Made by a program: the position numbers and the translations under genes | Notes under the pieces: model-generated | What the model was told of the DNA's origin: nothing | Databases searched by the model: none | The model's input: the letters and a program-made list of their open reading frames with translations, nothing else | Shown here: piece after piece, positions 1,222 through 57,858 of the stretch | Position numbering within the stretch: position 1 is the stretch's first letter | Layout of the letters: every line of letters begins with the position of its first letter | Source of the DNA: Halorubrum distributum JCM 10118 | GTDB taxonomy: Archaea > Halobacteriota > Halobacteria > Halobacteriales > Haloferacaceae | Length of the DNA: 64,000 nucleotides | NCBI RefSeq assembly: GCF_000337335.1 | Contig: NZ_AOJN01000049.1 | Span: 1 to 64,000, forward strand | Reading direction: 5' to 3'

Positions 1222-1286
1222 AGCCGGAGGGGGATTGTGAACAACGGCCGGACTCGCTCGCGCTCGTCCGGCCTCGTTCAAATCCC
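1222..1286 (-). repeat. Inverted repeat with tRNA-Thr 3'-end copy
   Basis: Located 38 bp beyond the 3' end of tRNA-Thr. On the minus strand it reads: antisense T-arm GGGATTTGAAC, stem GGCCGGAC, 12-nt loop, stem GTCCGGCC, then sense GTTCACAATCCC followed by a copy of the acceptor 3' strand CTCCGGC plus T. The two T-arm segments are complementary, so the whole can fold as one hairpin. The architecture matches the regions downstream of tRNA-Leu and tRNA-Gly in this window. Confidence 0.75.
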
Positions 1287-1323
1287 GCTTTGGCTTCCGC
1301 TGCTCACGTTGTCCACAGCAGGA

Positions 1324-1396
1324 AGCCGGAGGGGGGATTTGAACCCCCGACCTATTCCTTACGAAGGAATCGCTCTGCCAGCTGAGCTACTCCGGC
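1324..1396 (-). tRNA. tRNA-Thr(CGU)
   Basis: A 73-nt cloverleaf. The acceptor is GCCGGAG/CTCCGGC, the D-arm GCTC/GAGC, the anticodon stem ATTCC/GGAAT with loop TTCGTAA (anticodon CGU), and the T-arm GGGGG-TTCAAAT-CCCCC. The discriminator is U. CCA is not encoded. An AT-rich TATA-like stretch (CTTATTTTTC on the minus strand, about 1420-1430) lies at the expected promoter distance upstream. Confidence 0.95.
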
Positions 1397-25606: not shown

Positions 25607-25652
25607 CTGGCCGCATTACGCCGTGACTGAGGTTATATCTGTTGTCCTCTCG

Positions 25653-25785
25653 GGGTTCGAATCCTCAGCACGTATTTGCGGCTCACGGATTGTTCGCCGC
25701 AAAATGCGCGGGACCGGATTTGAACCGAGGCGAGAAATGCTCGCTCACTCCGTTCGCTGCGCGTTTCTCGCTGGGCTCAAATCCG
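25653..25785 (-). repeat. tRNA-Leu 3'-end copy and inverted repeat
   Basis: Bases 25705-25727 repeat exactly the last 23 nt of tRNA-Leu (25826-25848), 121 bp away. This copy continues into CGAGAAA and pairs with TTTCTCG plus GGCTCAAATCCG at 25764-25785, giving a large hairpin. A further T-arm-like GGTTCGAATCC lies on the plus strand at about 25655-25665. Between the hairpin and the tRNA are GCTCGC-type short repeats only. Confidence 0.8.
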
Positions 25786-25825
25786 CTCCTGCTCCCTCGC
25801 TCAGTCGCTCCGCTCCTTCGCTCAG

Positions 25826-25910
25826 TGCGCGGGACCGGATTTGAACCGGCGGACCCCTACGGGATAGCGTCCTAAGCGCTACGCCTTTGGCCTGGCTCGG
25901 CAACCCGCGC
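25826..25910 (-). tRNA. tRNA-Leu(UAG)
   Basis: An 85-nt class II tRNA. The acceptor is GCGCGGG/CCCGCGC with discriminator A. The anticodon stem TAGCG/CGCTA has loop CTTAGGA (anticodon UAG). There is a long variable arm (TCCCGTAGGGGT region), and the T-arm is CCGGTTCAAATCCGG. CCA is not encoded. Confidence 0.95.
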
Positions 25911-57569: not shown

Positions 57570-57640
57570 GCGCCGGTGGTCTAGTGGTAGGACCTGAGCC
57601 TTCCAAGCTCATGGCCCGGGTTCAAATCCCGGCCGGCGCA
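57570..57640 (+). tRNA. tRNA-Gly(UCC)
   Basis: A 71-nt cloverleaf. The acceptor is GCGCCGG/CCGGCGC with discriminator A, the D-arm GTCT/GGAC, the anticodon stem TGAGC/GCTCA with loop CTTCCAA (anticodon UCC), and the T-arm CCGGG-TTCAAAT-CCCGG. CCA is not encoded. AACGCTTATGAAAG upstream (about 57517-57530) is a possible promoter. Confidence 0.95.
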
Positions 57641-57858
57641 CTTCTCGAACGAAGTGAGAGAAATCGCCGAGAGGGATTTGAACCCTATCAGTCGCGCGCA
57701 GCGAGCGGTGCGAGGTGCGAGCGAAGCGAGCACCTCGATAAGCGAGCGAGCACGTCTGATTCCGGTTCAAATCCCGGGCGGCGCACTCACTTCGTTCGTG
57801 CGCCGCCCGGACTCCCGCTCGCTCGCTGCGCTCGCTCACGGGAGTCCCGGCCGGCGCA
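57641..57858 (+). repeat. Inverted repeats with tRNA-Gly 3'-end copies
   Basis: Directly after the tRNA come: an antisense T-arm GGGATTTGAACC with CTATCAG (57673-57691); a nested GAGGTGC/GCACCTC hairpin; the complementary CTGAT-CCGGTTCAAATCCC arm (57756-57775); and a sense 3'-end copy finishing GGCGGCGCA at 57785. Two more perfect hairpins follow, GGGCGGCGCA/TGCGCCGCCC (57776-57808) and GGACTCCCG/CGGGAGTCC (57809-57847), then a last CGGCCGGCGCA. This fills the space to the next gene. Confidence 0.8.

Follow-up and report, generated by a model that had tools for sequence, protein, structure and literature searches.

Three tRNA genes lie in the 64,000-nucleotide stretch of the Halorubrum distributum genome analysed here (contig C49:1-64000 of a haloarchaeal genome of 3.3 Mb, hereafter the window), and each is followed by a repeat that contains a copy of the gene's own 3' end. 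The question raised by this locus is what these repeats are and how they came to stand behind tRNA genes. Placement with ARAGORN and Rfam identified tRNA-Thr, tRNA-Leu and tRNA-Gly (Table 1). A preliminary description of this DNA had put the tRNA genes at 1222-1286, 25705-25785 and 57673-57858; these intervals are the downstream units, and the genes themselves lie beside them. The same ordered architecture that it reported 3' of all three genes is present at each (3/3). In the tRNA sense, the units comprise a spacer hairpin (S), an antisense T-loop arm (r), a GC-rich core hairpin (C) and a sense copy (t) of tRNA positions 52-73.

Table 1. Features of the three tRNA loci (positions are those of the window)
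Feature	Position	Strand	Basis or remark
tRNA-Thr(CGT)	1324..1396	minus	ARAGORN, Rfam
Thr unit, spacer S	1287..1323	minus
Thr unit, antisense arm	1273..1286	minus	GGGATTTGAAC + 3 nt
Thr unit, core hairpin	1246..1275	minus	GAGGCCGGAC..GTCCGGCC
Thr unit, decayed sense copy	1222..1245	minus	18/22
tRNA-Leu(TAG)	25826..25910	minus	ARAGORN, Rfam; positions 52-73 = 25826-25847
Leu unit, spacer S with hairpin	25785..25825	minus	sequence
Leu unit, antisense T-loop arm r	25776..25784	minus	GGATTTGAG
Leu unit, core hairpin	25727..25775	minus	tip GA-AC-GGA-GT-GA
Leu unit, perfect 22-nt copy of tRNA positions 52-73	25705..25726	minus
Older second Leu unit, remnant	25639..25704	minus	S hairpin 25665-25704, G57-type arm
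tRNA-Gly(TCC)	57570..57640	plus	ARAGORN, Rfam; positions 52-73 = 57619-57640
Gly unit A, spacer S hairpin	57641..57672	plus
Gly unit A, antisense arm	57673..57685	plus	GGGATTTGAACCC
Gly unit A, core hairpin	57686..57763	plus	TATCAGTCGCGCGC...ACGTCTGATTCC; tip holds secondary palindrome 57708-57741
Gly unit A, sense copy	57764..57785	plus	21/22
Gly unit B	57798..57858	plus	antisense acceptor 57798-57817, tip 57818-57838, sense copy 57839-57858

The Thr unit has decayed, and the Gly locus is a tandem pair with unit A first and unit B second. The palindrome in the core tip of Gly unit A, GTGCGAGGTGCGAGCGAAGCGAGCACCTCGATAA, has near-identical counterparts in core tips at other tRNAs and in other genomes (L030, L436, L437). 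It looks like a hairpin inserted secondarily, much as SMR-A elements enter palindromes.

Genome-wide, a downstream copy of positions 52-73 scoring at least 18/22 was found at 16 of the 42 testable tRNAs; one of these hits only reflects two tRNA-Asp genes in tandem, which leaves about 15 genuine cases. Ten copies are perfect (22/22). The upstream control regions gave a single match, again at the tandem tRNA-Asp pair. A mirror-image and shorter form, here called type B as distinct from the type A units described above, occurs at no fewer than four further tRNAs (Arg-CCG, Arg-CCT, Arg-GCG and Ala-GGC). The architecture had been supposed to follow every tRNA gene; this is true of the three in the window but not of the genome, where these type A and type B carriers stand beside remaining tRNAs without it.

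A survey of haloarchaeal genomes for such downstream copies, proposed in the preliminary description, revealed the arm-gap-copy pattern in 270 of 292 Halobacteria genomes, representing 71 of 77 genera, against 0 matches in the reversed control; named carriers include Halorubrum, Haloarcula, Natrinema, Halobacterium and Haloferax prahovense. A stricter three-part pattern was positive in 18 of 21 genomes of the order of H. distributum and in none of 109 other Halobacteriota genomes. Since reversed controls contained 0 matches across ~390 genomes and the copies end sharply at position 52 and at the discriminator, chance is excluded. The haloarchaeal matches lie 3' of a tRNA gene on the same strand, the sole exceptions being at contig ends, and their distance from the tRNA is mostly 32-80 nt, with second units at ~140-220 nt. 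The t-S-r-C-t layout was also found at two tRNA-Ser loci of Woesearchaeota (L159, L204), which suggests spread or convergence beyond Halobacteria. Among the loci inspected, a dense group of atypical tRNA genes (L475, G008:C1:313800-317200) may be a provirus tRNA array, and probable scaffolding artefacts were seen as a Nextera adapter beside N in L017 (~1607-1635) and as N-joined short duplications in L025 and L052.

The anatomy of type A was determined on 234 units at 177 tRNAs, a set with a few contaminating tandem tRNA pairs that can only weaken the signal. The units are gene-free and mostly 95-170 bp long (in round figures ~100-150 bases), with a fixed order t-S-r-C. Identity of the copy to the tRNA is 0.91-1.0 over positions 52-73 and falls to background level outside on both sides, with sharp borders at position 52 and at the discriminator (73). 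The 5' strand of the T-stem is lost: pairs 49-51 are paired at 0.35-0.59 in the copies versus 0.98-1.0 in tRNAs, so that no T-arm can form in the copy. Arm r is complementary to positions 54-62 (0.84-0.91), the acceptor part leaving only traces, and of 166 concordant units 164 have it paired with R57 of the copy. The corresponding boxes read GTTCRAATCC and GGATTYGAA. Within the arms, three positions of the inner stem have changed in a compensatory manner (z 5.0 to 6.9 over column shuffles, 28 class-I cores), and spacer S is itself a stem (z 19 versus shuffled units). In type B, the copy comprises positions 60-73 and the antisense arm is the acceptor complement. The same core classes recur across many tRNAs. 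A known RNA family was rejected as an identification, as in Rfam only tRNA itself passes at the units. Another repeat family, TATTTATAAA with a conserved stretch CACCTCCAAAGCCCCAGCCGCGAGG (or the reverse complement), lies 3' of many tRNA arrays and interrupts some units (L002, L015, L016, L021, L027, L032, L041, L044).

Comparison with congeners revealed both empty and filled sites. At tRNA-Lys(TTT), the site is empty in congener G016, where the tRNA is followed by CTGTCACCGCC; in the H. distributum genome a 128-bp unit ending in the copy is followed by CTGT-ACCGCC, and in G008 a different 116-bp unit is followed by CTGTACCGCC, the flank being common to all three. Further tRNAs with junctions that are likewise exact to the base came from an automated search: Gly(TCC), Gly(GCC), Leu(TAG), Leu(CAA), Ser(TGA), Arg(GCG) and Phe. 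In the window, Gly unit A (57641-57785) amounts to 145 bp of inserted DNA that G006, G013 and G014 lack, the type B unit lying directly 3' of the tRNA in these, and the Leu unit has no counterpart in G009 and G012; in two congeners the flank with the older Leu remnant directly adjoins the tRNA. Each time, it is the tRNA-adjacent unit that is extra. A direct duplication of the tRNA 3' end borders the inserts, and the tRNA is left intact. Among congeners, units differ or are missing at the same tRNA, and their order is mixed between species. Judged from these comparisons, the units are exact insertions at the tRNA 3' end. Two readings offered in the preliminary description are supported: an integrase att site as regards the direct copy, in view of the exact 22-nt or 14-nt duplications and the precise empty sites, and a mobile repeat specific to tRNA ends. 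Its remark that a hairpin is untypical of att sites was correct, and it is the hairpin at an att-like site that gives the finding its interest.

Known integrase att sites of haloarchaea have the same lengths as the copies: 22 nt, as in type A, for a tRNA duplication in Haloquadratum (PMC3119063), and 14 nt, as in type B, for SNJ2 (PMC8371274). This equality favours integrase-dependent, non-autonomous mini-elements. The units are accordingly interpreted, with slightly better than even confidence, as non-autonomous miniature integrative elements whose att sites, of 22 and 14 nt, are tRNA 3' ends; a folded hairpin probably serves them as the site of attachment. A type A element would consist of t'-S-r-C, that is, its own copy of a tRNA 3' end (t'), the spacer hairpin, an arm complementary to t' and the core hairpin. 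Comparison between genomes shows that units are added exactly at the tRNA, beside the gene, which yields tRNA-S-r-C-t-old flank, and that repeated additions build arrays. The crossover probably takes place at the 5' edge of the copy, at positions 52-57, whereby the tRNA gene would receive a new 3' end from the incoming t' and its former end would be displaced outward as the distal copy. The active form may be single-stranded DNA in which r folds onto t'; the resulting double-stranded att site would be closed by a DNA mini-hairpin of great stability, in a fold like those of integron attC or CTX-type phage attachment sites. Joining could be performed in trans by a tyrosine recombinase of the host, a plasmid or a virus. 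Several points speak against this interpretation: neither a recombinase nor an autonomous parent was found, a double-stranded circle of ~100 bp is stiff, so that the route hinges on the putative single-stranded form, and the interpretation does not account for arms fitted to many different tRNAs on one and the same core.

The point of exchange can be approached through tRNA genes whose tRNA-side end and distal copy differ at R57. In 22 units the arm agrees with the tRNA-side end and in 8 with the distal copy (sign test p ~0.016); at position 52, by contrast, the distal copy is the one it fits, in 6 of the 7 cases that could be decided. Such a pattern is expected if the element t'-S-r-C enters by exchange between positions 52 and 57. 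At tRNA-Leu of G016 the successive ends carry G, A and G, and the first two arms carry G and A, each fitting the preceding end and not the following one. Against this, the distal copy of the Leu unit in the window has A57, though the old end was probably G57. The R57 evidence thus supports rather than proves exchange between 52 and 57; the bias is moderate, and later mutation of distal copies could yield part of it.

The hairpin tips carry a strand signature. In 211 type A units, the tip motif GA-RC-N3..7-GY-GA was found 346 times on the tRNA-sense strand versus 20 times on the other, while in type B the strand opposite the tRNA is favoured by 12 to 0. Three-base tip loops are GNA in 143 of 195 cases, and four-base loops are seldom GNRA, the tetraloop that RNA would prefer. 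In DNA, GNA and GNNA loops closed by G-C pairs are described as extraordinarily stable mini-hairpins (PMC4686876). Such GNA-type DNA mini-hairpins at the tips, on one strand (sense in type A, opposite in type B), argue for single-stranded DNA over pre-tRNA. The strand polarity of the GNA tips suggests selection. On the other side, the folding energy of single-stranded DNA, by nearest-neighbour rules, is about equal on both strands. The reversal of the tip strand in type B cannot easily be accounted for as a feature of the tRNA transcript. Two other interpretations were rejected: a K-turn, as the motif lacks the three-base bulge, and an analogy to retroviral primer-binding sites, as no TGG precedes the arm. 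In Bifidobacterium contigs (L346 1103-1163, L374, L174, L177), a near-perfect palindrome of the tRNA-Met 3' end was observed, in L346 ~60 bp upstream of a tyrosine-integrase-like gene; it might be a bacterial counterpart to hairpin att sites.

No integrase gene is present inside the units, which are too small for one, and no large cargo was seen between the copies among the units examined. Pattern scans of IMG/VR for a virus-borne parent mostly hit tRNA-Ser(CGA) genes of bacteria and recovered no free copies from haloviruses; the sole haloarchaeal match adjoins a host tRNA-Glu. A tyrosine integrase of 336 aa (L415 7575-8585, contig C66) ends beside a tRNA-Ala 3'-end att copy, and its element sits between the tRNA gene and the unit array of that gene. 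This integrase belongs to a separate conventional element, and tblastn searches with it found no autonomous form of type A.

Alternatively, the copies could be scars of conventional double-stranded integrase att sites, the inverted arm having arisen later by replication template switching that perfects quasi-palindromes, with no role of the hairpin in insertion. Direct copies are typical att duplications (PMC8371274), a conventional integrase element lies between tRNA-Ala and the unit array of that gene in this genome, and palindrome correction would account for the covariation of arm and copy. Nevertheless, this is unlikely: random deletion scars would not be such uniform cassettes in the fixed t-S-r-C order, the same core classes would not be expected at many tRNAs, template switching in a resident hairpin would fit r to the distal copy, whereas r fits the tRNA-side end by 22 to 8, and the strand-polar tips suggest selection. 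Still less probable is the shuffling of ready-made arrays between strains by homologous crossovers in the conserved tRNA gene and the 22-bp copies, with little or no present site-specific integration. Conserved tRNA genes are natural anchors for such exchange, and unit orders are mixed between species, but precise additions of single units beside the tRNA with the remaining flank kept argue against it, and the origin of the units is left without account.

In a further alternative, an RNA-level element, the tRNA transcript would continue into a trailer with an antisense arm and a tRNA-like 3' end that steer tRNA folding or processing by RNase Z in the manner of a t-element; a tRNA-like element cut by RNase Z was among the readings first offered. 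Units 3' of tRNAs on the same strand, covarying stems and type A tips on the transcribed strand would all be consistent with it. It is nonetheless quite improbable and disfavoured by the loss of the T-stem 5' strand and hence of the T-arm, by tetraloops that are mostly not GNRA, by the type B tip on the non-transcribed strand, and by congeners with different units or none at the same tRNA. No more probable is single-strand transposition of the HUH type (IS200/IS605 or PATE-like), with hairpin recognition and short guide pairing to the tRNA T-loop: the tips do look single-strand-like, and palindromic non-autonomous elements (PATE, SMR) are abundant in Haloquadratum, yet PATEs and IS605-type elements are reported without target duplication (PMC3119063), whereas the units come with a duplication of 22 or 14 bp of tRNA sequence and are confined to tRNA ends.

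As miniature integrative elements, the units share features with several known systems. They resemble integron cassette arrays without an integrase (CALIN, with attC sites) and CTX-type att sites in forming arrays of short imperfect hairpins, with a conserved box at the exchange point, strand polarity and growth beside a fixed primary site; they differ in targeting a tRNA end instead of attI or dif and in lacking cargo. In attC one specific strand folds and is the substrate, to which the strand-polar tips of the units may correspond. The attC boxes R' (GTTRRRY) and R'' (RYYYAAC) were not found, the box of the units being the T-loop sequence GTTCRAATCC with C as its fourth base. The rtT repeats of the E. 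coli tyrT operon are tandem repeats each with a tRNA 3' end, at one tRNA locus and with no inverted arm; the units share the tandem tRNA 3'-end copies and differ by their many tRNA loci and the inverted arm. RNase Z t-elements before 5S rRNA in Haloferax also include a tRNA 3'-end sequence, whereas the units have no T-arm, do not precede 5S rRNA and occur as DNA insertions. With SNJ2 and the prophage insertion at Haloquadratum tRNA-Ala they have in common an exact tRNA 3'-end repeat, an intact tRNA and tandem accretion, and differ by the lack of genes, the size of ~100-150 bp, the inverted arm matched to the tRNA and the hairpin architecture. Finally, the PATEs, MITEs and SMR-A/B of Haloquadratum are likewise short, gene-less palindromic mobile repeats, and the palindrome in unit tips recalls the entry of SMR-A into palindromes, but in the available part of their description (PMC3119063) they are not placed at tRNA ends, they are not reported to duplicate tRNA sequence, and they lack neighbour-matched arms. 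The inverted arms that the units carry equal host tRNA sequence, and no parent was found among viral contigs.

The open literature searched contains no description of tRNA-end hairpin units; subscription papers were outside its scope, so absence is unproven. In their behaviour the units resemble miniature integrating elements of a kind not described before. A broader proposal, possible but tentative, is that Haloarchaea, with some Woesearchaeota, harbour class-wide gene-less minielements that would move as folded single strands, re-tailor their arms for each tRNA and repeatedly replace tRNA 3' ends, as an integron-like cassette system without cargo in which the T-loop serves as the box.

Short tRNA-end copies should not automatically be taken as ends of genomic islands. 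If the interpretation as miniature integrative elements is true, the 3' ends of many haloarchaeal tRNA genes would have been rewritten by tiny mobile hairpins, a hairpin-folded recombination site would be common in Archaea, outside integrons, and archaeal tyrosine recombinases would have a natural single-stranded substrate. The odd repeats behind haloarchaeal tRNAs would thereby be accounted for, and the attraction of mobile DNA to tRNA genes would become directly testable.
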